In this document: in pieces, positions 39,401 to 63,439 of the stretch
Layout: every line of letters starts with the position of its first letter
Position numbering within the stretch: the first letter of the stretch is position 1
Source of the DNA: Micractinium sp. NFX-FRZ
Taxonomy: Eukaryota > Chlorophyta > Trebouxiophyceae > Chlorellales > Chlorellaceae
Assembly (NCBI GenBank): GCA_029339195.1
Contig: JAPTJF010000214.1
Coordinates: 36,607-100,606 of the forward strand
DNA length: 64,000 nt
Reading direction: 5' to 3'
Made by a program: the position numbers and the translations under genes
The notes under the pieces: model-generated
Database searches by the model: none
What the model was told of the DNA's origin: nothing
Seen by the model: the letters and a program-made list of their open reading frames with translations, nothing else

Positions 39401-42400
39401 ACCGCCAGTATACGTAGCAATGTTCTGATGCTCACCTCATGCCTCCCCCCCCGATTGACCCCTCTTTGCCCCCCTGCAGGCATCCTGGGCGGGGAGAGCC
39501 TGGCTGCAGTGGCTGCCGGCATCAATGTGATGGTGTGGCATGAGACCACAGAGGGCATCTGCCAGCTGCAGGTGGGTTCGTGCACGCCAGCTGGAGATGC
39601 TGAAGAATGTATGCATGGATGTCACGAGCTGCATTAACCAACCATGCAATTTGTGCTGCATGCTGGCCAAGGGTGGACCTACTCGTGCTCCCAATATGCA
39701 GGCTCTCTCTCCTGTGGGCCGCTGCCAGTCGTTTGACGCCACCGCCGATGGCTACGGCCGCGGAGAGGGCTTTGCTTCGGTTGTGCTCGCTCGGCATGGC
39801 ATTGCCAGCTCAGCAGGAGGCAGCATCTTTGCTCACCTCTGCGGCAGCGCTGTCAACCAGGATGGGCGCAGCAGCAGCCTGACTGCGCCCAACGGCCCCA
39901 GCCAGCAGGCGCTGGTGGCCACCGCCCTTTCTGGAGCCAGCATGGAGCCATCGGCTGTTGGCCTTGTTGCTGTGCACGGCACAGGTATGGCATGCTGGAC
40001 TGCCGGGCATCGTGCGGCTTGCATGGATACGAAATCCATTAAAAGTGCCCCTGTTTCACTTGCCCTCACCACTAAAGCACGGCACATGTATCCCTGTATC
40101 CCTCTGCTGTGCAGGCACCCCACTGGGGGACCCCATCGAAGTGGGCGCTCTTGCTGCTGCCCTTCAACCCACCTCTGCCGGTGGCAGTGTGGTCGGCTTG
40201 GTTTCCATCAAGAGCTGCTATGGCCACACTGAGGGTACCGCCGGTCTCACTGGGCTTTTGACAGCCGCAGCTGCCCAACACAACGGGCAGCTGGCTCCCG
40301 TGGTCAACCTGCGCGAAATGAACCCTTATGTGACGGCAGCCCTGGGTGCCTTTAGCAGCGGCGCTGCCATCCCGCGCCAGGCAGCCCTTCATGCACCCGC
40401 AACCGGCAGCAGCCAACTGGCAGGCACCAGCTCATTCGGCATGAGTGGAGTGAATGCCCACGCCCTGCTGGCTTCTGCTGGGGCAAGCGCTTCTCAAGAT
40501 GCCTCCTCCACTCCCTGCTGGGAACAGCAGCGTTACTGGCCTCTGCCGCGGCAGCACCGTCTGCTGCAGCTGCCGCTCCTGGCAGGATCTGGTGCAGTGC
40601 GTTTCATTGCAGCCCTCAGCGCTCCAGCTTTGGCTTACCTCGGCAACCACCGTGTCAATGGCCGCGCCCTGTTGGCGGGCTCTGTCATGCTTGAGTTGGC
40701 GGGTGCAGCAGGCGCCTGCCTTGCTGAGGCAGCTACACCAGTGTTGCCGCTAGCTGTGGCTGACGTAGGGTTTGTGGCACCTTGCCTGCTGACTACGTCT
40801 ACGCGTGGGCCGCCGCCGCTTCTGGAGGCAGCAATTGACAGCAAGAGCGGGGGCCTTACATTGCGTTCCTCAGGCGGCACCAGGGGCAGTAGCAGTGTGC
40901 ACATGACATCAGCATTTGCCACCATCCCCGCTCGGCGGTTGGCATCAGCTGTTGTACCCAGCAGCATGCATCGGCAGTGTGCACTGGGTGTCATCTGCAT
41001 AGTTGAGCAGCTGAACCTTGCAGCTGTCAGCCTGGCACACCTGGCAGCACCCTCCGAGGACAGCACAGCAGCTTATTATCAGCACCCCGCTGCCACGGAC
41101 GCCAGTCTGCACCTTTCAGCGTTGGCAGGCCTGCTGCTGGACAACAGCAGCGGATCTGCAGTTGAGCAGGGCTCAGCACCGGCACGCATCCCAGCTACTG
41201 CTGGCATGTACGCAATCCCTGCAAGGATCGGCAGTGGTGGCAGCAGTAGGAGCTGGGCTTCCATCAAGGTGAGCTGTGGCAGCTTGCAGGGCCCCACCAC
41301 CATGCATGGTGCTGCGTTTGGGCCTTCCTTCCTTCCCACATGTCGTGCCATTGACAGTGCCACCCTGCGCTTGGTCCCTCTTGGCCACCCTCGCAACCAC
41401 TGACACGTTCTGGCTGCTGCGCTACTCTCCGACCTTGTGCAGGCTTCGCTGTCAAGCCCATCAACCCTGCTGACGTCAGTCACATGCAGTCGGTGCAAGG
41501 CGACTGCCACAGGTGGCTTCCGGCTGGCTGACTTGGTTTCGAAGGCTGTTGGCCGCAGCCAAGCACAGTGGAAGTCAGCCGCCAGCGCTCTGCAGGCTGT
41601 TGCCAGGAAGTCGCCAGCAGCATCTGCAGACATCAGCCAGCAGCTCATGTACACCGAGCAGTGGCAGGCAGCATCAGCATCCTCGGGTGTCACCCTGCGG
41701 CAGTCTCCGCTGCTCACCGCCGCGGTGCAGGGAGGCCAGCTCGTGCCAGTGGTCAGCGCTGCCACCATCAGCATCAATGCACCCACAGCTCAACTCCTGG
41801 AGGCACTCCAGAGCCGAGGCAGCAATGGCCTGCACAGTGTGCAACACTGGCTCATTGGCGGAGGCGCCTGCCCGCCTGGGCTGGAAGCCCAAAGCATAGC
41901 GCCAGCAGGCAGGAACTCTGCCAAAGCGAGCGCCGCAGCGGCAGCCCTGCACGGCATGCTCAAAGCGTTCGTCTCCGAACAGCTGGGAGGACAGGGCATG
42001 GCGGTTGTCTATAGCGGCAGCACAGCAGAAACGGCCAGCGCTGGAAGCGACAGGCAGTTTGGGGCAGCTGTGCAAGAAGCTGTGGCCTTCTCTCCACTGC
42101 TGCTCCCTGCTGCGGCCCCTCCCTCGCAGTCACAGGCTGCGCACGCAGACACTGCTTCTGGGGCGATGCTCATCACTGGTGGACTGGGCGGGCTGGGCCT
42201 GCTGACCGCTTCCTGGGTGCAACAGCAGGACGGCCAGAGTGGGCAGAGCCTGCTGCTCCTTGGGCGCAGCGGCCGCGTCAGCGATGCCACCTCTTCAGCA
42301 GATGGCTGCACAGCCCCCAGCGCCAACAGCCTTGTCAGCATGATGCGGTGTGACGCCGCAGTGCAGGAGGAGGCAGCAGGTGCTGTGGCAGCCGCAGCTG

Positions 42401-45400
42401 GTGACTGGCATGTGCAGTCTGTCCTGCACGCTGGCGGCATCCTGGCAGATGCACTGGTTGCCAATCAGACGGCGGCTAAGCTGCGCCAGGTGGCAGCACC
42501 CAAAGTTACTGGGCTTCAGCTTCTGGATGCAGCGACAGCTCAGCAGCCCCTTCAGCACATGGTGCTGTACAGCAGCATCGCTGGGCTGCTGGGCACTGCA
42601 GGCCAGAGCAGCTATGCGGCAGCTAATGCTGCGCTGGATGCCGCAGCCTGCACGCTGCGGCAGCGAGGGCGCGGCAGCATCAGCGCGCAGTGGGGTGCCT
42701 GGGCGGGGGTCGGCATGGCTGCTGCAGGGCCGCAGCTTCTGCAGAAGCTGCAACGTCAGGGTTATGGGTCTGTTGCACCCGCTGCTGGGCTCGCAGCCAT
42801 GCAGCAGCTCTTGTCGTGCTGCACCTTTGGATCCGTCTCCGCACTGGTGGCAGCGCCATTTGAATGGCGCCGCTTCCTGGCAAGCCATGGTCGGCTAAGC
42901 CTGCCTTTCTTCTCCGCTGTGCGGCCGTCAGCAGTGACAGCAGAGGAGCAGGGCTCTGACAAGGCTGCGGCGCCCGCTGCAGAGCGCACCCTTCCTGCTG
43001 CTATTGCAGCAGCAGCCTCAACAGCAGAAGTGCTTAGTGCGCTGCGACAGCTGCTTGCAGACCTCGCAGGGTCCAGCGCTGACGAGGCGGCCGATGACAC
43101 CCCTTTCCTGGAACTGGGTTTGGACAGCGTCGGAGCTGTGGAGCTCAGGTGAGGGAGGGCGCTGTCAGGCGTGCAAGCCTTAGCCGGTATGCTTACATGC
43201 GCACCACTGCACTGTGCATTCATATTATCACCTCTCCTCTCCTGCTGCAGAATTGGCATTTCATCCCGCTTTGGGTTGGACCTGCCTGCCACAGTAGTCT
43301 TTGACCATCCCACCATGGCCAGCCTGGCTGCCTTCGTTGTTGGGGAGATGAACAGGCACCGTCCTCGCGGCAGGCTCAGCACGGTCAGCTTCAACAGCTG
43401 CGACTCACCACGCACCACCCTGACCTCCAGCCACTCTGCAAGCGCCGCCCCCACACCTGCTGCTGCCCTCGCTCGCGAGCACTTGCAGCAGCAGCTTTTC
43501 GAGCTGGTTGCGGATGCTGCCAGCGTAGCGGTTGATTCGGAGCAGCAGCCACTGATGGAAGCAGGTGTCGACAGCATCGGCTCAGTCGAGCTCAGGTTTG
43601 TGGGATGATGTCCCGAGTTTGCTGAGGTCTGATTGCGGTTGCTTACGTTGCTTCGCAGCCTGGCTCTGCTTGGTTATAAGTATAGCCCTGCATCCCTTTC
43701 TTATTTATTGCAGGAACGCTATTGCTGAGCGGTACGATGTCGTGGCCCCAGCAACCCTCATGTTCGACCACCCCTCAGTGGCTTCTCTTGCCGATTGGCT
43801 AGCTGGCCAGCTTGCTGCCAAGGGCAGCAGCAGTCAGGCTGCTCACCACCACGAGCTTCTTCCGCTCATCACAGCACCTGTGCCGCAGCGGCTTGCAGCC
43901 TCTGCTGTGACAGCTGTGGCTGGTGTTTCCTGCAGCTTCCCCGGCAGCAGCATCAGCAGTTCAGCCAGCCACGCTGGCCTCGGTAGCTTCTGGGAAGGTG
44001 CCGCAGGGGCCGTCGACCTGCAGCAGGTTGTGCCCCTGAGCAAGTGGGATGTCGGTAAGCTGAGTCACCATGACCACACCTCTGTCTGCAATTCACCAAG
44101 CTGCACGCCCCACACATGTACCCAGCATTATTTCTGCCTGCCTCTCTGCAGATGCGCTCTACGCCCCGGATCTGGCTGCTGCTGCCGGTGGCGCAATCGC
44201 AACATACACCCGATTCGCTGCCATGCTGGCGGGCAGCATTGCAGCATTCGATGCTGCAAGCTTTAGACTCACACCTTCTGAGGCAGCGCTCATGGATCCT
44301 CATGCCCGCCTGCTTCTGGAGCACACTGCCATAGCAACAAACAATGCCCGCAATCAAAACTTTGTTCATTTGACAAGCGCAGGGGCCGAGCATGCTGCAG
44401 GCAGCGCCTCAACAGGCGTGTACGTCGGTTGCATGTGGGCCTCAGGTACGTGCAGCAGACAAAACAGGGGCTGTGCATGGATCGTGATGGGGTGCTCCGC
44501 GATCACCTTGTTCTGCTGCTCACAAGCCCGTCTCCTCTTCCGGCCGAACTGCGACACATTGTAGAGTATGTGGAGCTGCTGCCGTCCCTGGGCGTTTCTG
44601 ACACTTCAGCCAGCGTCAGCACAGGTGCGTGGGTTGGGGACAGCTGCAGCCGACAAGCCGGTCTTGGCTTGGTGGACACACCCGGGGCGCAATTTGCTGT
44701 TGCCTCACATAAAGCACGCACCTCCCGGCCCTTCACTGCAGGAAACACCTTCCCCTTCATGGTCGGCCGTGTGGCGTACAGCTTTGGATTCCAGGCAAGT
44801 GCATGGCAGCCTGAACGGAACCTGCTACGGCCACACAGCCTGCCACCTGCCCGCTGGCAGCAGGAAATGCAGGGCTTGCGTCACCGCTCTTGCTTCGCCT
44901 GCTGCCCATAAACACATGCCGCTTCTGCCCTGGTTTGCAGGGGCCCTGCGTCAGCACTGACACCGCATGCAGCAGCTCCCTGGTCAGCGCACACCTGGCA
45001 GGTAGTGCGCTGGACCAGGGAGAGTGCGCCTCCGCTCTGGCAGCAGGCGTCAACGTCATGCTGTCCAGCAAGACCACCGTCAAGATCTCCGCGCTTCAGG
45101 TGGGCTTGCGCAGTGGCGATGCATAACTGCAAGCAAAGTGGGTTTATGTTGCTGTCTTATGGGCGGCACCCAGGGCTTTGTATGGCACTGGGCAGCACCA
45201 GCATGCCTCACGTTGGTCCGCTCTAATGCCCGCCTGCAGGCACTGTCCCCTGTGGGACGCTGCAAAACCTTTGACTCCTCTGCCGACGGCTATGGCCGCG
45301 GCGAGGGGGTTGCGGTCATGCTGCTGACACAGCACAGCGGCACAGTGGGCCAGGCTGCAGGCCTGCTGGCATTGGTGCGCGGCAGTGCCGTCAACACTGC

Positions 45401-48400
45401 TGGCCGCAGCAGCGGCCTGACTGCCCCCAGCGGTCCTGCACAGCAGAGGCTGATGGATGCAGCACTTAGCGCAGGGCACCTTACCTCTGCTGACGTGGCA
45501 TATCTGAGCGTGCATGGCACTGGCACCCCTCTGGGCGATCCCATTGGTAAGCTTGCCGGGATGTGTTTGTGTCGGCATACATGTATCATCATCCTGCCAG
45601 CTGACGCCCGGTGTATAGCATGTGTGCCTTGCGTTCACTAGTGGGCTCCTCTCTGCCCCCTGCCTGCAGAGGTGAACGCGGCTGGAAGCGCCCTGTCAGC
45701 CCGCCATTCTGGGACCCCCAGAGTGCTGGCCATCGGCAGCAACAAGAGCTGCTATGGGCACACTGAGGGCACCGCAGGTGAGGGCCTTGCAGTGTAATGA
45801 TGCAGTGCGCATAGATGCCAGCACTGCGATGTGTGGGCCCAAATTGCAAACAGGCAGGCGGCCCGTCAGACCACACGTATACACATTTCCTCGTTCATGT
45901 ATTTGCAACTCGGTGCAGGTCTGGCTGGCCTCTTGCTGGCCACCTGTGCTCTGGAGCAGCATTCCCTGGCTCCCATATTCAGCCTGCGGGAGGTCAACCC
46001 CTACGTGTCTTCAGCCTTGGATGACTGGCGCAGCAGGCACGGCAGGGTCGCTGCCCTGCCCCGCCAGCTGGGCGCTCTGCCATCAGGATCAGCAGATGCA
46101 GCCGCTGCCATCAGCAGCCACGTGGCCGGCACCAGCTCCTTTGGCATGAGCGGCGTCAATGCACACATGCTGGTGTCAGCCGAGGAGGCGGGCGCTCCTC
46201 GGGTGGCTGAGGACGCCCCCAGCCTGCCATGGCAGCGCCAGCGTCACTGGCCAGCTCCAGCGCCGCACCCCCTCATGCAGCATTTCAATGGCGTGGCAGG
46301 CGGTGCCGCCGCTGGCACAGCCGTGCGGTTCAGCTGCAGCCTTGCAGCATCCAGGCTGGCATTCCTGCAGGACCACCGCGTTGCCGAAAGGACAGAGGTG
46401 CCCACCACCTGCCTCCTGGAAATGTCGCTGGCAGCAGCCGCTTTAGTCTGCAGTGACAGCTCCCGCCGCCTGCTGCCGCTTCTCACGGGTGTGGCCGTCC
46501 AGGCCCACATGAGCTTGGAGGTGGCAGCGCTGGGCAGCACTTTTGAGTGCACATTGCAGCTAGGCAGCCAAGCTGCGGCAGCGGTATCTGTGCACGGCAC
46601 AGCACACCTCAGCAGCCAACTGACGGCAGTCCCGCAGGCAGCGTTTCAGAGTCCATCCTTCAAGCAGGCCTCACAAACCTCTCCTCTGGGCTCTCTGAGC
46701 CTTTTGGCAGCAGCGCTTCCATCGACCACCGGCTCTGGGGCAGCACTCATTACTGGGGCCAGCACCTTCGCCTGCCTGGCGGACTGCAGCGCTGGCTGCG
46801 CAGACTGGCTGGTGCATCCAGCATCGGCTGATGCCTCAATGCACCTGGCTCGGGTGCTGCAGCCGTGGGAGATGCACGGCAGTGGCATCGCACCCGCAGC
46901 CATGGACTGTGTTCTAGCCACGCCTCCGTCGACAAACAGCGCATTTGTCCAGCAGTCCTGCAGTGCAATGCGCCCTCAACAGACTGCACACGGTTCAGTG
47001 GTTGCCCACATTTCGGCCCAGCTGGCAGGCGGCAGCTTTTCAGCTGCAGAAGTGGTTAGCAGGCCCCGTGCTGCTGTGCAGCCGGCGCAGGCAGCTTTGG
47101 CTGCTGACTTGGGCCTTGCAAGTCAGCAGGAGGGCTTCATGTACCAGATCGAGTTGCAGGCCTCAGCTCAGCAAGGCAGTGCCATCAGCCGGCAGCCAGC
47201 TGCACACGGACGCCGGTCAGACTGGCGTCTCCGGATGGGCACGGCATCCGATGTGCAGGAACTCAGCGTGCAGCCAGCAGGCGATTGGGCAGAAGCTGCA
47301 GCAGGTGGCATTCAGCTGCTGCAGAGCATCACGGCAGCCTCCAGCAATGTTGTGGCAGTGCAGGCGCTGGTGGGCGCTGTGGTAAGCCGGCCCGTGGCAC
47401 ACTCCCGCCCCAGCAACCTGGCTTGCAGCGCCATGGCAGCTGCCCTGATGAAGGTGGCGGCTGTAGAGCAGCCGGACAAGCAATGGTCCACCATTTCTTC
47501 AGATGCACAGCAGCCTCTGCCCAAGGGCATGGCGGACCGGCACGCTTCCCGAAGCAACCTGGTCGACCAGCACGGCATTCACTTTGCTGACGGCACGATC
47601 TGCTTCCCCAAGCTGCTGCGGCACCCAGTGATGTGAGTGCCTGCCCTGTGTATGTAGCAGTTCATCCAGGCTTGTGCATTGCTTATGAGGGCTGGGTTGA
47701 ATGGGTGTACTTGGCCCTCACCATCTATGCAGGCCTACCCGTGTGGAGAGCAGCAGCGGGTTCAAGGAGAATACAGGCCGCTGGGTTGTCAGCGGTGGCA
47801 CAGGGGCTTTGGGAGCACTCACCGCTAAGTGGATGGCAGCCAGAGGCGCCAGGCGGTTCAATCTGCTGGGCCGTTCTGGCACAGCTGACACTGTGTCAGC
47901 TCCGAACAGCACTGCGCCGGCTGCTGTGCTCTTTGAGGGCACGGTCGCTGGGAGTTGGGAGGCCGAGGTCACACTTGTCAAGTGCGACGCTGCTTTTGCA
48001 GCGGATGCAGCTGGCACACTGGCGGCGACCGCAGCTGTCCGACACCCAATTGCCGGTGTGCTGCACGCCGGAGGCGTGCTCAAGGATGGCACTCTGCCGA
48101 ACCAGACCCTGTCAGGTACCCGTGCAATGTTCCTTGCGGGGGGAGGTATTGTGCTATGTTGTGGGCCAGCATCGCAAGGGGACCGCACTTTGCCTGGTTA
48201 AAACACACCTCTCCAATCAGTATTTTCGGTGCAGGCTTGAGCACCGTGTTTGCTCCCAAGGCAGCGGGCACTGCGCAGCTGGCTTGCTCAGCAGCGGCCG
48301 CCCTGCAGCCAGTTCAGGCAATCAAGCTCTTCTCGTCTGTAGCAGCGGCCTTGGGCAGCGGCGGGCAGGCCAACTATGCAGCAGCCAATGCAGTGCTGGA

Positions 48401-51400
48401 TGCAGCTGCAGAGCAGCTGCAGCAGTCTGGCCTGCCCGGAGTGGCAGTCAACTGGGGTGCATGGTCTGGCGCTGGGATGGCGGCGCATGCAGGTAAAATG
48501 GGTCAACGAAGCGGCTGGCATGACATGCATGCTGAGTGCAGCTGCCACACTTTGCACCCTCGGGCACGCACCGCTCTTTACTCCCCACCTCCGCCTCCTG
48601 TTCTGTCCCTCTCTTCACGCAGGCTTGGCTCGCATGGAGCGCCTCGGCTTTGGGTCCATCGCACCTGACGCTGGCATGGCAGCTATTATTGCCCTGCTGA
48701 GCGGCCTGCAGAGCGGCATGCACACAGCTACTCTGCCTCCGCCCGTCCTGGTGGGATCCGTCTTCTATTGGGATAGGCTGAAGCTCAATAGCCAGCTTTT
48801 CTCTGAGCTGCAGCAACACCCTGCACCCAAGGCTGTTAGCAGCACCATTGATGCACGGCCAACTGCTAGCAGCAGCTCCGCTGCAACAGCAGCAGCAGCC
48901 GCACCTGCGCTGCCACTGGAGTCAATTCAAACAGCTGTAACCGAGGCGGTGGTGGCTGTGCTCGGCAGCGACCCTGGTGCAGACACCCCGCTGGTGGGAG
49001 CTGGCATTGACTCGCTGGGTAAGCGGGCCGTGCAATGCAGCATGTCTTCACATCATGCACAGGGCCAACAGTGCCGGCATGGCAGGAGGCTGCTCGCTGC
49101 TTCCTGTACAGCTGCTTCCTCGGGTGCACAAGCTCCCCTCTGTGTGGTTGTCAACAAATTCCATGTCCCCTCCCCCTGCAGGAGCTGTGGAGCTGAGGAA
49201 TGAAGTGGCCCGCCGGGTGGGTAGCGAGATGCCAGGCACCCTGGTGTTTGACTATCCCACCATTGCAGCCATCACTGCTTACGTGGCCTCCAAGCTGGCT
49301 CCTGCACCATCTAGCAGCACACCTGCCGCCTTCATGGGCAGCAGCCAGATTGTCCCAGCTGCCCAGAGCCAGGGCCAGCAGCTGGTGATGCTGACTGATG
49401 TGCGCAGCAGGGTGCCAGAGCAGCCAGGTGCAGCAGAGGCGCCGGCAGCTGACCCCATTCAGTCGGTGCCGTTGGACCGCTGGGACCCCGACTTCTCACG
49501 CACCCTCGCGAGCTTCTCTGAGCGCCACAGCCGCATGGCTAGTGGGCTAGGCGTGCGGTTTGGCGGCTTTGTGCTGGAATGGGCAAGCTTCGACCCCGAG
49601 GCCTTTGGCATCCCTCCCGCAGGTAAATGCGCCAGCAGACGATAAACCTAAACCCTGCTCCAGCCAATCCCTCCCTCTGCAGCCTGTTTATGGCCCCATG
49701 GTTTCTAACACAGACACCGCTTCTGTGTTCTCAAACCATCCGATCCTGTTCTGACACCACGCCTTGGACACCCTATCTGCAGAGGCTGCGCTGGTGGACC
49801 CCCAACAGCGTGTGCTTCTGGAGGATGCTGCGGGGTTGCTGACTCCAGACAGCAGCTCCACTGGCCCGGCAGCTGGCTCTGCCTGGCAGCAGACGGCAGT
49901 GGCGGTGGGCATTGCCAAGCTGGGAGAGCCTGCAGCAGTGGTGGCAGGCAACTCAGCAGCTGTTGCTGCGGGCAGCAGCTATGTGGGCACAGGGCGTGCC
50001 CTTTCAGTGGCTGCCGGCCGCCTGAGCTACTGCTACGGGCTGAAGGGCCAGGCTGTGACTGTGGACACCGCCTGCAGCAGTTCCCTCGTGGGCCTGCACT
50101 TTGCAGTGGGGGCCATCCTGCAGGGCACTGCCACCCGCAGCCTCAGCGCAGGCGTCAACCTGCCAATGAACTGGGAGACAACATCCATGTTCGCAGCAGC
50201 AGGTAAATTGGCTGAGGAAGCTGCATGGCTGAGCTGTGTAGGGTGGGTGCCCTCCAGTATGCCCCCCCATGCGCCCGCATTCAGTGCGCTGTCGACCATT
50301 ATTGCCTCACTTTCAATCACATGCCTCCACTGCTGCCACCGCGCAGGCATGATCGCACCGGATGGCCGGTGCAAGACCCTGGATGGCACAGCCGATGGCT
50401 ACACGCGGGCCGAGGCAGCAGTGCTCCTCATGCTGCAATCCGCGATGTCACTGGCTGCTGCCAGCGGCAGCGACTCTTCTCAGGCCTTGGCGCTTGTGGT
50501 GGCTGGCACGGCAGTGAACCAGGATGGGCGCAGCAGCAGCCTGACAGCACCGCATGGCCCCAGCCAGCAAGCTGTGCTGGTGGCGGCTGCTGGGGCAGCT
50601 GGTCTGGCACCAAGCCATCTGAACGCCCTGGAGATGCACGGCACAGGCGAGCAGGGCTTGTGCCGCAGCAGCTTTGTTTTGCTTGGTGCAAGTAGCCTAT
50701 GGCAGCGGGTGCCTGACTGCGCATGCCTGCCGACATTACCCTTCTTTCCCTGCAATGGGATCCGTGCACTGCAGGCACCGCTCTTGGAGACCCCATTGAG
50801 GTCGGGGCTGTGGCCGCTGTCATTGGCAAGCGCCCGCCTGGCGCAGGCCATCCAGCCGTTGAGCTAGCTGCTGCCAAGTCCTTCTTTGGGCATGCTGAAA
50901 CCGCTGCTGGCGCTGTGGGCATGCTGCGGGCAACGCATCGCCTGCGTCAACAGGAACGCCGCGCTGTGCTGCACCTGGTCAGCCTGAACCCTTACGTCAG
51001 CAGCATCCTTGAGAGCAGCAGCGGCACTAGCTTCACGGCTGCACGGCAGGCTGCTCCTGGGCTGCTGCCGGCAGGGGGAACGATGCACAGCGGTTGCAGC
51101 GCATTTGCTTTCCAGGGAACCAATGCACATGCTTTGCTGTGCAGCCATGCCGACCTGGCAGGTGCCGCCGCGGACCACCCCACACAACCTGTCAGCCTGC
51201 CCTGGCAGCATCGTCGCTTCTGGTATCAACCCACACCTCACCAGATTCTTCTCAGTGCGTCCGCTAGAAGTGGCTTCACTGCTGCCGGCAACGCAATGAG
51301 CGCCGCGTTCGAGGTGGCACTGGGGCGCCCCAGCTTGGCATTCGTCTGGGACCATCAGGTGAGCTCTTGGCGCCAACCTGCGAGCAGTGCTTGATGCGAC

Positions 51401-54400
51401 GCTGAATGGCAGAGTTTCAACTGGATGCCACACCAAGCCTGGGCAATTTGCGTGCTTTCATGCGATGTTTCGTTTGCTGCAGGTCCAAGGCCGGGTGCTT
51501 GTGCCTGGCGCCGTGATGCTGGAGGCCAGCAGGGCAGCTGCACAATCGCTTGTGGACGACAGCAAGACTTCTGGTGAAGCCGCTCTTCTGGGAGTGAGCA
51601 TCCCCGCCCCATTACTACTGCCTGCTCCTGGCAGCGGCGGCAGCGGGGACCTTCCTCTTGTGCGCTGCACTGTCACCTACAGCACCGGCAAGCAGCCGAT
51701 GGTTCAGCTGCAGAGTCTTGATGCTAGCGGAGCAGGGGCAACCACATGTGTCAAGGCTTCTGTGTGCAGCAACACACAGCTGCCCTCACCTACATGCCTG
51801 GCTTCCAGCAAGGCAAGCAGGCTGCTGCGCATGACTGATCTAGCAACCGCGTCCGTGGCGGCATGCCCTCCCCCAGCAGCCATTGGCAACGTCCAGCTCA
51901 CCGGCCCAATGGCAGCGCCAGGCTTCTGCTGCCATCCAGCAGCAGTGGACGCCACCACTCACTTCGGTATCTTTGCAGTGCCGGAGCAGCAGGTTTCAGG
52001 TCGTCATGACGCAGCCGTGTCGCTCAGGGTCCCTGCAGGGGCAGCTTACTTCAGCGCGCCGCAGCATGGGCCTGTCCGTGGGCACTGCTGGCCCACCATG
52101 AGCAGCGGTGGTGCGGCTGCGGATGCGGTTTTGGCAAACTTCGGCATGAGCGCGGGCGGTGGCAGCTCTGCAGGCAGCAGCGCTTTCCGGATCAGTCAGT
52201 GGAAGCTCAAGGCGGTAAACCGTTCAGCGCCTGGCAAGGAGCGTGCACCGGCAGGTGGCCTGGCAAGCTATGCTGTGCAGCTTGCAGCGGCCTCGATTGC
52301 CAGCCCAGCACTCTGCGCTGTACCCAGTTCTGCAGTCAGGCTGAGCGGCAGTGCTGGCAGCATTGACTTGGTTGGCCACGCTGGCAATATTTTGAATGTC
52401 AGTGGCGCAACTTCAAATGGAGTGGCCAGCGCGCTGCGCTTTATGCAGCAGCCTGGCGGCAGCGTGCAGCTGTCAGCCACGGCAGACATTGCAGGTGTCG
52501 CCTCTCCAGCTATAGCAGGGCAGCGCCATGCCCGCATCAGCGTGATTGCAGCTGCTGTACAGGGGATGCTGAAGACTAGCGCGGCAGAGGGGGGTCAGCT
52601 TGCTGGCTGCTCAGTCAGCAGCCCACTCCAAGCGGCAGGGCTGCAGGCGGCAGGCCCAGATGGAGACGTGTTCAGCGCTCCGCACGATTATGCAGGGGTA
52701 TTGCTCCTGCCGCAGCTTCAACGAGCCCATCAGGAAAGGCAGCAAGACAGCCCTCTGGTTCTGCTGCCCCCTGGCACCTGTGTTTCCATTAGTGGCGGCA
52801 TGGGAGCCCTGGGTCAGCTCATTGCTGCCTGGCTGTCCGCTGGGACCTCAGCTGCTGCGCACGTGGACCTGTGGGGGCGCTCTGCAGCGGTGCCACTGCC
52901 GATTCACCTTGTCAGCGGCAACCCGTGTGTGTCAGCTGCACTTTGTGATGCAGCCCTCATGGAGGACGCATTTACTGCCGCGGACTGCCACCGCCGCACA
53001 GCAGTGTTCATTCACTCAGGTGGGGGGGGGGGGGGCAGCCGGTGGTACATGGTTGCAGAGCTTGCTTGGGTGGCATGTTGCAAAGGGCATTTTAAAGATC
53101 TCCCCATGTCAACCCCCACTGCAGGTGGGGTGCTTCGAGATGCTCCTCTATTCAGGCAGACAGCTGGGACCGTGCGTGCCACTCTTGCCCCCAAGCTCGC
53201 CGGGGCACTGCTTGCCAGTGCTGCGCAGGCACAGCAGCCGCTGCAGCAGTGCATGGTGTTCAGCAGCGCTGCAGCCCTTCTGGGCAATGCTGGACAGGCG
53301 AACTACGCAGCAGCCAATGCAGCTCTTGACGCACTTGCAGCACAGCGGCAGCAGCAGGGTTTGCCGGCCGTCAGCCTCCAGTGGGGCCCCTGGGCAGGAG
53401 GCGGCATGGCCACGCCGGCCGTTGCAGCCAAGCTTGCAGCCAAGGGCGTCGGCTTGGTGCAGCCCCCCGACGGGCTGCTGTTGCTGAGCTGGCTGCTGTT
53501 GAGCACCAGCTCAACCAACTCAGCATCAGCAGTGTCAGCACCGCTGGTTGCTCTGGACTGGCGGCGCATGCTCAGCCCGTCACAGCAGCAATCCACATTC
53601 TTCAGTAATTTCCTGCATGGAGAACAGAGCGGCAGCACTGTCATCCCCCACGCAGCTTCTCAAAGCCAGCGGCTTGCGTTGCAGATGTGCAAGACGACAG
53701 CTGCGTCTACTTTGCCCTCGGTGCAACAGATTCAAGAGCAGCTGCTCGCCATGGTCGCTGGCGTGACGGGAAGCGACATGGACCCCACGGCTGCCTTTAT
53801 GTCTTCTGGTGTTGACTCCTTGGGTAAGTGCGTGCAGGCACTGCCTGCCCTTCGGAGCAGCACCAGCTGAACCGGCCACTCCTGCGTTGCACAAGCTCTG
53901 AACACACATTCCCTGACTCTCACTTTACGCTCTACCTCCCCCTGGCCTGGTGCCTCGCACCTATTGCAGGTGCTGTGGAGCTGCGGAACGCCCTGGCTGC
54001 TCGCTATGCGGTCCACCTCCCGGCCACTGTCACTTTCGACTACCCCACACCAGTGGCCTTGGCAGCGTTTGTGCATGCTCAGCTGCTCCAGGCAGCACCT
54101 GCAGTTCATGCAGCGGCAACAGACCGCAGCCTCGGCGCAACCACGCCCGTCATTGGATTTAGTTCTTCACGCCGGCAGTTCCTCATGGACAGTGGAGCTG
54201 CCGCAGCCCGTCCTATTGGCACAAGCACAAGCAGGTTCGCGCCTGCGGCCAAGGGCCATGACGTTGCCGCGATCCTGCAGCAACTGACAGAGGTGGCAGC
54301 TGGCGTACTCGGCATTACCCCTCCTGCTGACCAACCGCTCATGGAGGTGAGACATGGCGCCCAGCCATAGGATGGGATCATACCAGGCGGCGGCAATGTA

Positions 54401-57400
54401 TGCATGTGTGTGCATGCTGTGTTCTGCAAGCACACACATTTTCAATTTGCATATACGCTTCCAATGTGCATGCATCCTCCCATTGTCTCACCCTCATGTG
54501 CAGGCCGGCCTGGACTCTTTGGGCTCCGTTGAGCTGCGTAACGCTGTCAGCACGACGTTTGGCCTTCAGCTTCCTGCCACCGCCACTTTTGACTACCCCA
54601 CCCTAGGCAGCCTGGCAGGATACGTGGCAGAGCATCTGCTGGCAGATGGCCACCATCAAGCTGAACTTGAGGTCGGCGACGAGCTGTCGAGTGCCCTCAC
54701 CCAAGAGGGGAGCAGACTCACAGCGATGGTAGCTGCCTCTGGCAGGTACCCAACTCCCACTGGTTACGGGCATGACGCAGCAACCTTCGACTTTTCTGCA
54801 CCCAGCGCTGTTGCTGGATCTGGCAATGCTGACCTTCTTGGCTTCCAAGAGGCCATCGCAGCAGGCGCCAACATTCCCTCGGTGGTGCCTCCTGAGCGCT
54901 GGGACATCGATGCGTGCTACCATCCTGGTATGTGGGCATGCTTGATGCTTCAGGTGCACCATTGTCACAGTGAAGCTGTGTGGCAGGCACTGCTATTTGC
55001 TGCTGCCCACACTCGGAAAGCCATGACCAATGGTGCTTGCAGATGGCGGGACCCGGCGCATGTATGTTCGTGTTGGCGGCTGGCTGGAGAGCCTGGCTGG
55101 CTTTGACCCTGCAGCTTTCCGTCTCAGTTTCAGGCAAGCTGCATTCCTACCTCTGCGGAACTGCCGTAGCATCGGTTTGCTTTGACAACATGGCATGTGC
55201 TGTTTGCATGGCCATTGCTGCTTCACCCTGCTACATGTGTTTACTTTGCCTTGCCATTCGCAGCGAGGCTGTCGGCATGGACCCCCAGGCCCGCATGCTT
55301 CTTGAGCACACCCACGACATGTTGGCGGCTTCAGCTACAAGCCCTGCAGCTGATGCCGTTGGCAGCTCGGTCGGCGTGTTTGTGGGCTGCATGTACACAG
55401 GTAAGTCGAGCGACCTGCCTGCTTGGGGGCACAGACACCAGGAACCGGGTGCACCATAGCCAAAACTTCTCTTCACTGCCCCGTTGCCTGCAGAATTCCT
55501 AGATGGCATTCTGTTTCCCACCGGCATGGCGGATAGCAACTCAAATGCCATTCTGGGACACGGGCTGTCCTTCTTGGTTGGTCGTACAAGCTACACATTT
55601 GGACTTCAGGTGCCTGCGGACAGTTGCAAGGAAAACAGTTGCATACCCAGCCTGCTCCACCCCGCACACAAATGGCACATCTTGCTGACACACTGCCATT
55701 CCCAACCTTGCAGGGGCCGTGCATTAGCACAGACACAGCCTGCAGCAGCTCTCTTGTGTCACTGCACCAGGCACACAGCTCTGTGGTGTCAGCAGAGTGT
55801 GCTGCAGGCTTGGCCGGTGGAGTACAATTGAATCTCATAGCTCAGGCAAGCCGGCGCCAGCTGTGCAGTTTGCCATGTGGCAGATTGCCATTCCTTATGG
55901 TGCTGTGTAGCGCTGGGCTGCCTCGCATGCCTTGTGCTGCTCTATACTTTCTTGCGTTGAGAGCTGAACTCATCTCCACCCCTCTCTACTACCGCAGACT
56001 CCCGCACGGATTTGCCTCTTGCAAGCCCTGTCCCCTGTGGGCCGCTGCAAGACTTTTGACTCCTCTGCCGATGGCTACGGACGCAGCGAGGCCATTGCCC
56101 TGGCTATGATTGTGCACGCCGACCTGGCAGCGTCTGGGGCCGACAACATATTGGGGCTACTGCACGGCAGTGCTGTCAACCAGGACGGCCGAAGCAGCAG
56201 CTTGACAGCTCCCAACGGCCCTGCACAAACGGCTCTTGTCCGTTCTGCGCTGCTGGCTGCTGAAACCACTGTCGAGGCAGTGGCTTTTGCATCACTTCAT
56301 GGCACAGGTGCGGCTGTTCAGCATTGTCGGATAGGGGTCCGTGGTGCACAACTAGCCAAAGCCGACTTGCACCTGGCATATTATGACACGTTTTCTCCCC
56401 TCACACTGCAGGAACTCCTTTGGGCGACCCAATTGAGATGGGGGCGCTTGGCTCAGCGCTCGCGGCCACCAAGTACAGTGCTGACAGCACACACTCTGGC
56501 ATGCCTGGTGGCAGGCCTCTAGCTCTGGCCAGCAGCAAGAGTTGCTACGGCCACACGGAGGGCACGGCGGGCGTGACTGGTGTGCTGCTGGCCACTTACT
56601 GCCTCCACTCGCGGCAGCTGCCACCAGTGGTGAACCTACGGGATCTCAACCCTTACGTGGCAGCCGCTTTCCACGAGTGGACCAGCAGACAGGGTCTTGT
56701 GGCTGCTCCCAGCCGGCAGCTGGGAGCGGCAGCCAATTTGGGCACATACAACTGGCAGCAGCTGGCTGGAACCAGCTCCTTCGGAATGAGCGGCGTGAAT
56801 GCCCTTGCTCTTCTTTCGAAACCACCGGGCGAGGCTGCCAGTGACCCAATCAGCAACAGCCCTGTCTGGCAGCGTGGCAGCTGTTGGCCCAGCCCGGCTG
56901 CACATCCGCTCTTGGCAATGGCAGCGGTGCATCTGAGCGTGGTGGAATGCGCATGCGACACGGCATCTCCCAGTTTGGCTTGGCTGAGGGACCACTCTGT
57001 ACATGGCAGGGCGCTCCTTCCTGCTGCCGCCATGTTTGAGATGTGTGCTGCAGCAGCGGCAGCCTGCACTGGCAGTGAGCATACAGCTATCAGCAGCAGT
57101 GGCAGGGTCAATATGCCCGTGCTGGCAGCCTTGGCGGTGCTAGCACCATGTGTGCTACCTGCGAGCTCCAAGGGAAACGGTGCAGCCTTGTCTCTTCAAT
57201 GCAGCCTGGACGTTATTTCTGGGGCTGTGCTTGTCGGCACTGGCAGCCGCAGTGTGCATATGCAAGCAGCATCGTCATTGGCACTTAAGATACAGCATCA
57301 GCTGCCAGACCAGGCGGGGCTGTCAAGCCTCCGGGTGAACCGTTCAGCCTTGCTGCCACAAGGAGCCACAAATATGAAGGGTCACAACTTGGCGGGTGTG

Positions 57401-60400
57401 AGCAGCACACGTCACGATTCTATCGGGTGAGCACGAGCCCGGGGCGCTCAGCAAACAAACGCCGGGCAGGCTGCGTTCCATCCATGCGCACTCACACCTC
57501 CTTGTGTGTGGTTGCAGGTACATGTTGCAGCCAGGGATGTTTGATGCCTGCATACATCTGGCGCCGGTCCCTTTGGCGGGTGCTGGGATCGACGTCACTC
57601 GGGTGCCTGTCGCAGCAGGCTCACTTGTTGTCCCCCCGCGCCAAGGTGAGGGTACCCACTCGCTTCCGCCGTTTGCCTCAATGTATGCAGCCCCAATTTT
57701 TGCTTTGCGCCTTAGTGCAGGTCGGGCTGGAGCCACAGTGAAACATTTCCATGTTCCCATGCAGGCAAGCCCCCTGGCAGCTGGGCTGTGGCAGAATCTG
57801 TCGGCATCAGCGATGTTGACCTCTTAGCCACAAACAACATCCGGTGGGCAGACGGCCGACTTGCAAGCAGCCTCTGCCTAAGTGGCCTCCTTTCAAAGGC
57901 AGCCCCAGCATCTCGCACATCCGCTACAATGTCATCAGTGCATGCTGCTGGCAGCAAGCTTCTGTATACCACCAGCTGGCAGGCTTATAGCAGTTCAGTC
58001 CCAGAGGTGTCTGCAAGTCCACCAAGTATGGTGCCGGTTGCTTCAACCTGGACGTCTAACGAACGCTGCCATGTCATCAAGCCGGGTACAACTGACACCA
58101 GCTACGCTGCTTCACATCTGCAGTTCATGCAGCAGGTATGTTTAGAGTTGACGGGATGGGTGGGTGAGGATTTTTCTGTATGTACCACCCTACACGCCCC
58201 TGCAGCGTCGTGGAATCATGACTAGCTCCACAAATGGACGGCCCATACTGCCCACTCCCCGCAGGCAATTCGCATGCTGGGACACCGTGCATCCATGCAC
58301 TTGCATACGACAGATGTTGTGCTGCCATATCCAGCAGCTTGCAGCAGAAGTACCGCTTGTCAGCAGCAGCAGCATATGCTGCTGGGTCTTCTAAAGGTGG
58401 CCGCCCTTGATGCACCAGAGCTGCTGTGGTCGCACAGCAGTCAGCTGCCATCGGCTACCTCTTCTGTGGATGCTCAACAACCGCCTTTCAGGGACGTTTT
58501 TGGACCCAGCATGGCAGGGGGAGTTTTCATGGCACCCAGACTGCTGCAAGGCGCTCCAACTTCGCAAGCACCCAGCTGCATTTCGGCAGTCTTTGGGGCC
58601 AGCCTGGTGACTGGCGGCATGGGAGCGCTGGGCACCCTCATTGCTGCACAGCAGCTGGATGCAGCCGGCAGCACACAAGGTCCTCACGTCATCTTACTGG
58701 GGCGTTCCATTGACTCGACTGCATTGGATGCTGCCCTTGGCAGCACCTGGCGGCGCGCATCTGCACGCAGCAGCCTTGTGCAACTTACCATTTCCAAATG
58801 CGACTCGTCATCCTCTGCGGACGTGGAGGGCCTGGTTTGCGCCCTCAATCAGGGTGGGACACGAGTCAGCCGCCTCCTCCACGCAGCTGGCGTGCTTCGG
58901 GTAGGCAAATGGGATATGAAAAAGTCACGTGGAAGTCACGATCGAGTGTTGTTGAGGTGCCATGCCCTGGCCTTACTGCCTGCCCACCTGTGCTCACTGC
59001 CAAGCCTCGGTCTCTAGTAAATAACCGTTCGCATGTCCATCGTACCCACCCGCCTGCAGGACGCCATGCTTCACAATCAGACTGCAAGCAACCTGCGCCA
59101 AAGCCTGGCGCCCAAGTCTGGCGCTGCACGCACCCTGCTTCAATATTTGGGCGCTGCCGGTCGGCTTGGAGAAGCAGTTCTCTTCAGCAGCATTGCTGGC
59201 TTCCTTGGCAGCGGCGGCCAAGCCAGCTATGCTGCAGCCAACTCCATGCTGGACGGCATGGCGACCTCTTGGGCGCAGCAGGTGAGCAAGCAGTAAAGTG
59301 TGAGATGTCGCCGCTGCTCGGCTTGTTCATTACATGAACTCGTGGCTGTGAAGGATCTTGGCACAGTCTGCAGTTCTCTGCCCAACCGTGCATTTACACT
59401 TGAACTCAAAACATGGTCCACCCATGGCTTTGCAGGGAATTGCCGCTTGCAGCATTGCCTGGGGCGCTTGGGGCGGTGCTGGTATGGCGGCAGCAGATGC
59501 AGGCATCAGCCTCCGTCTGGAGCGACTCGGCATTGCAGCCATCCTGCCAGCTGCCGGGCTGGAGGCGCTGGAGCTTGCGGTGCAGTCCCCTGTGGCAGCA
59601 GGAGGCAGGGTCGTGATGGCGGCCAGCCTTCTCTGGCAGAGGCTGCTGGTGGATGGCAGGCAAGATAAGCTGTTCTTCAGTGAGTTTGCTGGCGTGGCAG
59701 CGTCGGCAGCTCGTCGAGACCACCAACGGCAGCAGCTAGTGGAGACCATGGACGCAACCGTTCAATTGACCGTCTCAGGATTCCGCCAGCCCTCCCAGTC
59801 AGGCCAGGCTCCTTCTGTGTTGGGCAACCTTCCCTCGTGGCACCACATGTCCGCTGCCGAGCGCTCAGCCTTCTTTGCTGAACAGATCTCGGGTCTTGTG
59901 GCCCGCACTGTTGGCAAAGCTGTGGGCTCCAGCGAACCTCTTATGACAACAGGCCTTGACTCTCTTGGTGAGTTGGGGTATGCAACAGTGTAGGCACAGC
60001 ACCTGCCAAAGCACAGCTTCCCTCATTGCACGCAGCATTGTGTCTTCACTCTCAAACGCTGCCATGTTTGTACGACTACCTTTGCAGGGGCCATGGAGTT
60101 GCGGCGTGAGGTTGCAGCCCTAGCAGGTGTCGACATGCCTGCCACTCTGGTTTTCGATTATCCTACAGTTTCGGAGCTGGCAGCGTATGTTGTCAGTAGG
60201 CTGGCATCTTTGAGTGCACCCAGTTCTGTTGTAGCGCGAGACAAGGCAGCAACTAAACCACGCAAGCCATCTGCAACGGTTTCTGTGTCAATTTCTCCAG
60301 CCAAGCCTGCGCCAGCACCGCCCACCTTGGATCTCATCGCAGCCCAGGTGGGGAAAAGGCCGTTGCCGTGCCTGACTGAAGCCTTACTTACTTTATTCTT

Positions 60401-61551
60401 CCTGGACCCCATGCCTCCGCGGAATGGAGGCACCACGCCTTTGACTTTGCTTCCCCCTTAATGTTACCCGTGTGGGTGCAGGTGCAACAATGTGTGGCCA
60501 GAGTGCTGGGCGGTGCAGAGGTGGCAGCCACAGCACCGCTCATGACCACTGGCCTCGACTCTCTTGGTGCACTTGAGCTGCGAAAGGAGATGAGCAGGTG
60601 GGTGACAAGCCCACACCCCCATGTGCAGTAGGCGGGAGAGTGAGCAGTTCCTTCAAACCCACATGTTGTGTGCAATGGCATCCTACCCACACACGCTGCT
60701 CAACCCGAATGCCAATTCCTATTGTGTTGCAGCATTTTTGCGCTTGAGCTGCCAGCCACCTTCATCTTTGACTACCCCACAATCGAAACACTAGCAACAG
60801 AGATAGCGCGTCTCTTGGGCAGCACGGCGGCTGGAACTCCCGAGGCTGCGGCTCTTCGTGCAGGCGCCACTCTGGAAGGCGGCAGCAAAGGAAGCATGGC
60901 CGTACCGCAGCGTCCTTCTGCTGGTGGCGAAGAGAGTATGCGGCCGCAAGACGCACATGTTGAGCCAAAGCTGCGGCGGCAGCTCCCACCTATCAACCCT
61001 AACGCACCAACCTTGACACTTCCAGGCTACTTCACAGTACCCAGCCTTCGTCGGCTCCAGCGCTTGAAAGACGAGGAGCTCCGCGCTCTGCCACGTCTTG
61101 TCGTTGGACGAGAGGGCTACGGCGAGATCAGTTTCTTGTATCCTGGTGAGCGGGGAGTTAGCTTAGGGTTTGACAGAGGAGTCCTTCCCATGCATGTTGG
61201 CGTCCGATTGTTGAGCACTGACTTGTGCTTTTGGCGCCTCACCCTAACTGTGCAGTCAACATATTGAACCTTAACCTTGACTCCGCAATCCGCATTGAGC
61301 GTGGCCGCATGTCATTATATCCTCTGCTTGACGAGGACAGTGCACGCACGCTTCCAGCTCCAGGAGAAGGCCTCAACCAGCCAGCTTTGCTCACCTTCCG
61401 CCGCATGGCAGTGCGGCAGCCGGACGATAAGCGCAAGGTTGATGCCTTCCGCCGCAAACTGCAAGATGCCTCAGCACGAATGCACGGAGTGTTTGTGCAC
61501 TATGACCCTGACGAAGGCCTATGGCTCCTGAAACTCGACTCTTGGCAGTAA
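21443..61551 (+). CDS. Giant AT-less modular type I polyketide synthase, six modules, Nup98-like C-terminus
   Basis: One ~40-kb gene with dozens of introns. Domain order: unknown N-terminal region, ACP, then six modules of KS, DH or DH remnant, KR and one or two ACPs, and finally a nucleoporin-autopeptidase-like domain. Single open exons join ACP to the next KS at all five boundaries after module 1 (near 31850, 38200, 43850, 49400 and 54680), and others join KS to DH and KR to ACP. No start or stop region separates modules. I found no GHSxG acyltransferase, enoyl reductase, methyltransferase or thioesterase. Malonyl loading would need a separate AT, as proposed for other chlorophyte PKSs. The start at 21443 is the first ATG of the open frame. 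The product is unknown, but six extensions with KR and partly DH would give a hydroxylated, partly unsaturated chain. Likely cytosolic: no clear targeting peptide is visible. Confidence 0.9.
24480..25071 (+). other. PKS first (loading-position) ACP
   Basis: Helix I is [19 protein letters not shown]. The exon starting near 24763 gives [16 protein letters not shown], with the phosphopantetheine Ser at 24808-24810. The exon 24974-25071 gives [19 protein letters not shown]. This is a complete acyl carrier fold standing before the first KS, where a starter unit would be held. A disordered Ala/Ser/Arg linker (exon from 25257) separates it from KS1. Confidence 0.88.
25790..31850 (+). other. PKS module 1: KS - degenerate DH - KR - ACP - ACP
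   Basis: KS1 (25790-28590) keeps all three catalytic residues: DTACSSSL Cys at 26697-26699, HGTG His at 27451-27453, and GHAEA His at 27923-27925. Its N-terminus ([12 protein letters not shown]) lacks the usual G-x-x-C-x-x-P-G. The DH-position segment (28650-29600) has the second hot-dog part ([12 protein letters not shown]) but no H-x-x-x-G-x-x-x-x-P, so it is probably inactive. KR1 (29600-31070) has [10 protein letters not shown] at about 30218, [10 protein letters not shown] and [10 protein letters not shown] (Tyr 30639-30641). Two ACPs follow, with Ser at 31316-31318 and 31710-31712. Predicted result: a beta-hydroxy intermediate. Confidence 0.85.
27790..27838. repeat. Two exact 17-bp direct repeats in a KS1 intron
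   Basis: TTAAGGGTGTAACGCGT occurs at 27790-27806 and again at 27822-27838, within the intron between the HGTG and GHAEA exons. It has no evident function. AGGGT-like words recall degenerate telomeric sequence, but this is weak. Confidence 0.7.
31900..38195 (+). other. PKS module 2: KS - DH - KR - ACP - ACP
   Basis: KS2 (31900-34722) has Cys 33132-33134 in LDTACSSSL, His 34015-34017 in MHGTG and His 34292-34294 in GHAEPAAG. Its N-terminus resembles KS1 and KS5, and it may lack a few residues after QGL where other KSs read an aGGVNL-like strand. DH2 (34880-35790) is canonical: [11 protein letters not shown] with His 35049-35051, and HPAAADA with Asp 35502-35504. KR2 (35800-37260) has [18 protein letters not shown] and [11 protein letters not shown] (Tyr 36810-36812). 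ACP2a (Ser 37575-37577) and ACP2b (Ser 38065-38067) each have an intron just before the GLDSLG exon. Predicted result: a 2-enoyl intermediate. Confidence 0.87.
32457..32571. repeat. Inverted telomeric-repeat insertion flanked by a 28-bp duplication
   Basis: In the intron after the QQRMMLE exon of KS2, an exact 28-bp sequence ending in CTTCTGCAGGAT occurs at 32457-32484 and again at 32544-32571. The 59 bp between them are telomere-like: TAGGG words, a palindromic centre GGGTTTTAAAACCC, then CCCTAAACCCTAAA. The duplication includes the acceptor. Splicing at the first copy would read GAT TAG, a stop. The second gives DAWDVL, which continues the KS, so the exon must start at 32569. Confidence 0.92.
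38285..43815 (+). other. PKS module 3: KS - DH (LPG to LAG) - KR - ACP - ACP
   Basis: KS3 (38285-40485) has the ordinary N-terminus ([10 protein letters not shown]), Cys 39325-39327 in DTACSSSL, His 39975-39977 in VHGTG and His 40225-40227 in GHTEG. It ends [13 protein letters not shown]3 (40540-41500) reads [11 protein letters not shown] (His 40648-40650), with Ala where Pro is usual, and keeps HPAATDA. KR3 (41640-42895) has [20 protein letters not shown] and [11 protein letters not shown] (Tyr 42613-42615). ACP3a (Ser 43126-43128, DSVG) and ACP3b (Ser 43573-43575, DSIG) both have an intron right after VELR. DH activity is likely but not certain because of the Pro to Ala change. Confidence 0.85.
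43905..49300 (+). other. PKS module 4: KS - degenerate DH - KR - single ACP
   Basis: KS4 (43905-46190) has [11 protein letters not shown], Cys 44968-44970, His 45513-45515 in VHGTG and His 45759-45761 in GHTEG. The usual [14 protein letters not shown] is [16 protein letters not shown]4 (46240-47130) keeps His 46374-46376, but [12 protein letters not shown] has lost the Gly and the LPG turn. HPASADA is present. This DH is probably inactive. KR4 (47140-48800) has [20 protein letters not shown] and [11 protein letters not shown] (Tyr 48375-48377). There is one ACP only (Ser 49012-49014), with an intron inside its DSLG motif; all other modules have two. Confidence 0.85.
49380..54650 (+). other. 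PKS module 5: KS - DH - KR - ACP - ACP
   Basis: KS5 (49380-51150) is of the KS1/KS2 type: N-terminus [15 protein letters not shown] without the GxxCxxPG loop, Cys 50073-50075, His 50637-50639, GHAET His 50891-50893, and ending [12 protein letters not shown]. The intron after HGTG begins GCGAGC (50647-50774), a GC-AG intron required by the frame. DH5 (51300-52150) is canonical: [11 protein letters not shown] (His 51353-51355) and HPAAVDA (Asp 51948-51950). KR5 (52230-53690) has [17 protein letters not shown] and [11 protein letters not shown] (Tyr 53304-53306). ACP5a has Ser 53817-53819 and ACP5b Ser 54516-54518. Predicted result: a 2-enoyl intermediate. Confidence 0.86.
54730..60830 (+). other. 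PKS module 6: KS - DH (LPG to LPA) - KR - ACP - ACP
   Basis: KS6 (54730-56830) has Cys 55741-55743 in DTACSSSL, His 56298-56300 in LHGTG and His 56552-56554 in GHTEG. Its NAH motif reads NAL. DH6 (56870-57830) reads [11 protein letters not shown] (His 56993-56995) with a second part QPGMFDA, where Gln replaces the usual His. Activity is uncertain. KR6 (57955-59680) has [10 protein letters not shown] near 58605, [10 protein letters not shown] across an intron, and [11 protein letters not shown] (Tyr 59228-59230). ACP6a has Ser 59961-59963 and ACP6b Ser 60560-60562. ACP6b ends [20 protein letters not shown] in the same exon that continues into the C-terminal nucleoporin-like domain. Confidence 0.84.
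61005..61548 (+). other. C-terminal Nup98-type autopeptidase (Nucleoporin2 / S59) domain, cleavage site lost
   Basis: Exons 60733-61145 and 61256-61551 encode, after ACP6b and a linker of about 60 residues, [55 protein letters not shown] and [18 protein letters not shown], then stop. This follows the Nup98 C-terminal domain in order and spacing: GYYTxPS, xGRKGYGxI, NLNLDxIVxxRRxE, GEGLNxxAxVTL, YxPETGxWxF. In Nup98 the domain cuts itself at a His-Phe-Ser motif just after the last strand. Here that position is KLDSWQ and the chain ends, so self-cleavage is not expected. In Nup98 the cleaved domain docks to scaffold nucleoporins. Its role on a PKS is unknown; docking or folding are guesses. Confidence 0.85.
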
Positions 61552-63397: not shown

Positions 63398-63439
63398 TAG
63401 GGTTTTTAAACCCTACCCTAAACCCTAAACCCTAAACCC
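63398..63439. repeat. Interstitial telomeric block with inverted junction
   Basis: TAGGGTTTTTAAACCCTA forms a near-palindromic head, followed by four CCCTAAA-type units (one lacks the AAA). The block joins truncated satellite A on the left to satellite B on the right. CCCTAAA/TTTAGGG is the telomere repeat of most green algae and plants. Confidence 0.9.

Follow-up and report, generated by a model that had tools for sequence, protein, structure and literature searches.

The window, the whole 64,000-nucleotide stretch of contig JAPTJF010000214.1 of Micractinium sp. NFX-FRZ that was analysed, contained much of a giant type I polyketide synthase (PKS) gene on the + strand. Near its end, the last ACP was followed by a domain of the nucleoporin Nup98, the autoproteolytic domain (APD). 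In window coordinates, with the left bound of the gene set at the first ACP signature, the features were:

24799..61551, + strand: giant type I PKS gene (motif scan, KS matches and tblastn of the Apatococcus lobatus PKS P0025)
55708..59260, + strand: last module, KS, DH and KR, in exons with introns between (PF00109, PF02801, PF21089, PF08659)
59436..59967, + strand: exon with the post-KR stretch, then the first half of the penultimate ACP (five-exon spliced model)
60088..60347, + strand: exon with the second half of the penultimate ACP and a linker (PF00550, weak, 21.9 bits, cut-off 20.8)
60482..60597, + strand: exon with the first half of the last ACP and its GLDSL serine site (PF00550, weak, 22.5 bits, cut-off 20.8)
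60733..61145, + strand: junction exon with the end of the last ACP, a linker and the start of the Nup98 APD (one open exon)
61256..61551, + strand: last exon with the remainder of the APD, then TAA (spliced model, Pfam)

In a motif scan of the + strand, an ACP signature near 24.8 kb was followed downstream by six KS-led modules (DTACSS at 26688, 33123, 39316, 44959, 50064 and 55732), with KR, DH and further ACP signatures among them. The presence of KS with KR, DH and ACP in one gene identified a type I modular PKS. The same scan, in which AT was represented by the motif G[HQ]SxG[EDS], gave no match to this motif on the + strand of the window. In a tblastn search, the A. lobatus PKS P0025 (7083 residues) matched along 24781–61425, although the modules are alike and the best match per stretch was not always collinear. 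The five exons between 59436 and 61551 spliced to one open frame encoding ACP, ACP, APD and a stop, with AG before each exon and GT after the first four; the frame 59352–59990 alone had no Pfam match. The linker in the junction exon was 92 residues long, from LPAT to the APD motif, and the protein ended with LDSWQ-stop. Among the frames downstream of the last ACP on this contig, a Pfam scan matched PF04096 only. Beyond the PKS gene, the window had a subtelomere-like contig end (62386–64000), in which a 174-base repeat occurred six times, together with a short TAAACCC array (63407–63439) and further repeats of 126–146 bases up to the contig end.

The C-terminal domain of the giant PKS is a Nup98 APD. 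The spliced tail (235 residues) matched PF04096 with an E-value of 1.7e-21 over positions 3–139 of the 148 in the profile, and no other family was matched. Compared with solved Nup98 APD structures, the window tail gave an E-value of 7.6e-17, and it shared 31% identity (47 of 152 columns) with the canonical Nup98 APD encoded elsewhere in its own genome. A structure prediction, also proposed in the preliminary description of this DNA, was available as the AlphaFold model of a relative, P0001, which aligned with Nup98 APDs and so had the predicted fold of an APD. The pLDDT of this model was at least 87 in most ten-residue blocks of the APD, with weak spots in a variable loop (60–81) and at the last two residues (71). 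In structural alignment, its fold was closest to the APD in the Nup88 complex 7mni. VIA-align placed W391 of P0001 opposite residue 863 of 7mni_B and Q392 opposite residue 864 of 2q5x, positions which we take to be the place of the Nup98 cut site. The preliminary description had recognized a Nup98-type domain after the last ACP, with the junction inside one exon, and both points were borne out by the profile match and by the open exon 60733..61145, which the ACP end and the APD start share.

The PKS–APD fusion is conserved in other trebouxiophytes. A single-sequence search with the tail returned 23 proteins, and a search with a nine-row alignment returned at least 52 relatives, of PKS type by eye, with the best 7997 candidates by common words scored. 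In a search of giant proteins, the tail matched the A. lobatus model P0025; the second match, a bacterial PKS, was weak and covered 27% of the query. The same tail, which had been suggested as worth seeking on PKSs of other Chlorella-like algae, was thereby found in A. lobatus, in a gene model of Micractinium tetrahymenae and in open frames on other public contigs; both named species belong to the Trebouxiophyceae. The relatives were compared as 55 rows, namely 53 from the tail and alignment searches, P0025 and the window, with P0024 (read-through) and P0026 (weak match) excluded. Since many rows were single exons or cut gene models, some perhaps of the same species, with clusters at 90% identity, the counts below refer to rows and not to independent events.

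The window tail was 45–54% identical to eight other rows over common columns. An ACP motif preceded the APD in one chain in nine of the 55 rows, the window included, at a spacing of 58–135 residues. P0001 (Micractinium) and P0027 (JGI contig) each had two PF00550 stretches and PF04096, and P0025 had three consecutive ACP motifs ahead of the APD. A gene-model artefact, already discounted in the preliminary description, was rejected on the grounds that ACP and APD occur in one open exon here and in single chains from other sources. The A. lobatus model left the family after ...KKKDAASV and lacked the domain's end; P0056 carried a nearly identical stretch that ran on to the usual end. Long Ala/Pro-rich stretches were observed within the APD of P0012, P0017 and P0047–P0049, between the L-Y-P strand and G-x-G-L-N; these may be real loops or unspliced introns. 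Scans with back-translated patterns, which detect only sequences with the same patterns, gave 18 pattern matches on viral contigs and five in prokaryote genomes, with no relatives among either, and a bacterial or viral origin of the tail was rejected.

The domain's end was reached in 49 of the 55 rows (the short rows were P0008, P0022, P0023, P0025, P0045 and P0054). The stop followed three to four residues after W-x-x-[KM]-x in 48 of these 49, which places it at the Nup98 cut site or one residue beyond; the exception, P0027, was 13 residues longer. No complete tail (0/49) contained His-Phe-Ser in the APD, and the sole HFS in the 55 rows, at position 624 of P0025, lay within an ACP. The window tail accordingly had neither the His-Phe-Ser cut site nor the downstream protein of a peptidase of family S59. 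A histidine in the motif V-H-[YWFS], on the strand before the end, was seen in 50 of the 55 rows; the remaining five (P0008, P0022, P0025, P0045 and P0054) stopped before this strand. Three canonical APDs had other residues at this position. In a tree of 17 rows, the 14 PKS-type tails were separated from the three canonical APDs with a support of 96/97; with only three canonical rows, the tree shows distinctness and not the source Nup98. Judged by these motifs, the PKS-type tail is a distinct APD form without the protease site, and it is probably no longer self-cutting.

The tails also differed from canonical APDs in the stretch between G-x-G-L-N and F-V-H-Y. It was measured in 47 of the 55 rows (P0008, P0022, P0023, P0025, P0035, P0045, P0054 and P0056 were excluded) and spanned 38 residues in 43 of them and 35, 39, 40 and 50 in the others, against 44, 46 and 46 residues in the three canonical APDs. 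The stretch was therefore shorter than the shortest canonical one in 46 of 47 tails, with P0055 (50 residues) as the exception, and a [VT]DK motif was found in none of the 47. This stretch is presumably the K loop, through which Nup116/Nup98 contacts Nup82/Nup88. Its place would correspond to Nup116 Lys1063, the residue and role presumed, within about one residue if 3pbp_B starts at 966.

In addition to the PKS tail, one further APD match was found in the genome, in a separate Nup98 gene on contig C171. Its APD, with exons joined by eye, scored 153.5 bits, and its cut site HFSKYGLLDSDEE was intact, so that a normal Nup98, the presence of which had been raised as a check, accompanies the fusion. 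The frames of this gene (C171:38500–48000) appeared FG-rich by eye, with an open frame past HFSKYGLLDSDEE. No Pfam match beyond the APD was obtained in five frames, the FG-rich ones included, and the reading of the gene as Nup98–Nup96 is therefore based on HFSKYGLLDSDEE and on the look of the frames only. The Nup96-start motif K-Y-G-[L/F]-x-D-[S/T]-D-E occurred in the genome in the canonical Nup98 gene only; no partner with the ancestral peptide is thus evident, and a partner bearing the Nup96 start peptide was rejected. A search of the genome for Nup88 gave no match, and was uninformative since the controls had no match either.

By our grouping, three contigs were rich in KS: that of the window (C214, six KS), C117 (11 KS) and C342 (eight KS); four further contigs had two KS matches each. 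Of these three giant PKSs, only that of the window ended with an APD, whereas C117 and C342 had thioesterase matches (PF00975) downstream of the last ACP. C117 also had an AMP-binding match upstream of the first KS. PF00501 had two matches on C117 and none on C214 or C342 among the best 14 of 60 candidates, a weak absence given the share of candidates scored. On the minus strand of C117, two separate thioesterase matches (1609–2667 and 5444–6811) lay past the last ACP, and its last KS had HSNGT instead of HGTGT; the terminal KS of the Chlamydomonas PKS has HANGT, according to PMC4661987. The thioesterase match on the minus strand of C342, near 4724–5356, had GTCLGA by eye, with Cys in the usual position of Ser; the enzyme may use Cys as its nucleophile or be inactive. 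In the 1.7 kb between a PCI-domain frame and the first KS of C342, no loading domain was seen by eye and in some Pfam scans, the start being judged from frames of at least 80 residues and a few such scans in one genome. Thus, the PKS that lacks a C-terminal thioesterase ends in an APD, and one in which no loading domain was seen, that of C342, has a thioesterase match at its end and is therefore a candidate downstream subunit.

We hypothesize that a giant green-algal type I PKS gained a copy of the Nup98 APD at its C-terminus before the lineages compared here diverged. The copy would have been placed behind tandem ACPs, at the position that a thioesterase occupies in the two other giant PKSs of the genome. 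The tail, which stops at the former cut position, would keep the shape of a cut APD. By docking, it would bring the last ACPs together with a partner, and this putative partner would accept the chain or release it. Candidates for the partner are a thioesterase or acyltransferase that stands alone and the subunit that follows in the PKS. The holding of a partner is the role that would remain, because the tail has no cut site and, given the place of its stop, resembles the product of cutting in shape. The shortness of the loop presumed to contact Nup88/Nup82 and the histidine on the strand preceding the end favour a new partner, one close to where the assembly line ends. Capture of an APD copy and its retention as a C-terminal docking module, with the docking itself putative, is the best explanation, to which we give about an even chance. 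In bacterial PKSs, docking domains likewise lie C-terminal to the final ACP of chains that lack a thioesterase. The PKS of the window uses a borrowed nucleoporin domain instead, and the likeness is one of position. As a more specific form of docking, the APD may serve as an inter-subunit docking domain through which the chain passes from the C214 PKS to that of C342. This is a tentative and rather unlikely proposal; if true, the APD links two megasynthases today, much as it formerly linked Nup98 and Nup96.

The preliminary description had offered docking or a folding cap as one option; docking fits best, and a cap is possible but improbable. Taken as a whole, the preliminary interpretation was supported in part. 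As a cap, the tail would serve folding, dimerization or escape from degradation without a specific partner. A compact conserved domain at the very end, most of it predicted with high confidence, is consistent with this, and a pure folding cap would leave traces much like those of docking. However, the conserved PKS-type histidine (50/55 rows) and the free end fixed to within one residue (48/49) point to a specific surface and not just to stability.

The nucleoporin tether that had also been proposed, by which the tail would attach the PKS to the nuclear pore or envelope through the usual APD partners, is disfavoured and somewhat less probable than a cap. The vertebrate APD cuts Nup98 from Nup96 and then holds either the N-terminus of Nup96 or the propeller of Nup88, which are thus its two known anchors (PMC11148069), and the fold of the relative P0001 matched the APD of the Nup88 complex best. 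The loss of the cut site in all 49 end-reaching tails, together with the shortening of the loop presumed to contact Nup82/Nup88 (46/47, with [VT]DK in 0/47), argues against such a tether. It is highly improbable that the tail itself releases the chain as a cut-down acyl-transfer domain replacing the thioesterase: it stands where C117 and C342 have thioesterase matches, and APD autocleavage is an acyl transfer, but the Ser and His of the cut site are gone. A neutral relic of gene fusion, as had been considered, or an artefact of gene models is very unlikely, for although the A. lobatus model falls short of the domain's end and the function of the tail is putative, the fusion is conserved in other trebouxiophytes with 45–54% identity to eight rows, a conserved end and open frames from several sources, and P0056 carries the A. 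lobatus-like stretch through to the usual end.

The PKS tail resembles the APDs of Nup98–Nup96 and yeast Nup145 (PF04096, S59) in fold, motif order, approximate length, G-x-G-L-N and [V/I]-G-R. Unlike the Nup98 APD, it sits behind tandem ACPs, lacks His-Phe-Ser and has a short region at the presumed K loop. APDs of the yeast Nup116/Nup100 type likewise end without a cut partner. They have stayed within nucleoporins and, by the title of 3pbp, bind Nup82, whereas the PKS tail is short in what is presumably the K-loop region. Green-algal trans-AT PKSs (CrePKS1 and CvaPKS1/2; PMC4661987 and PMC7073580) are likewise giant and multimodular with KS-DH-KR-ACP, and the motif scan of the + strand of the window gave no AT match. 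Thioesterase is among the abbreviations in the figure legend for the Chlamydomonas PKS (PMC7073580), in contrast to the ACP-ACP-APD end of the window PKS. The string 'nucleopor' does not occur in the main text of the algal PKS survey PMC4661987. In agreement with the statement that no described PKS with this domain was known, no PKS–nucleoporin fusion was found in the open-access literature (5.39 million papers), among the matches listed and by title or opening of the abstract. The database entry of P0025 is annotated with both members of the PKS–APD pair, and the fusion is therefore catalogued, though apparently undescribed.

PKS engineering might gain a new type of docking element from the APD tail. 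The tail also provides a direct handle on the release or onward transfer of the product in an algal PKS that has no C-terminal thioesterase. A nuclear-pore part put to new use at the end of a megasynthase of metabolism, retained across algae and without its protease site, would clearly exemplify the capture of a domain by one machine from another, unrelated one.
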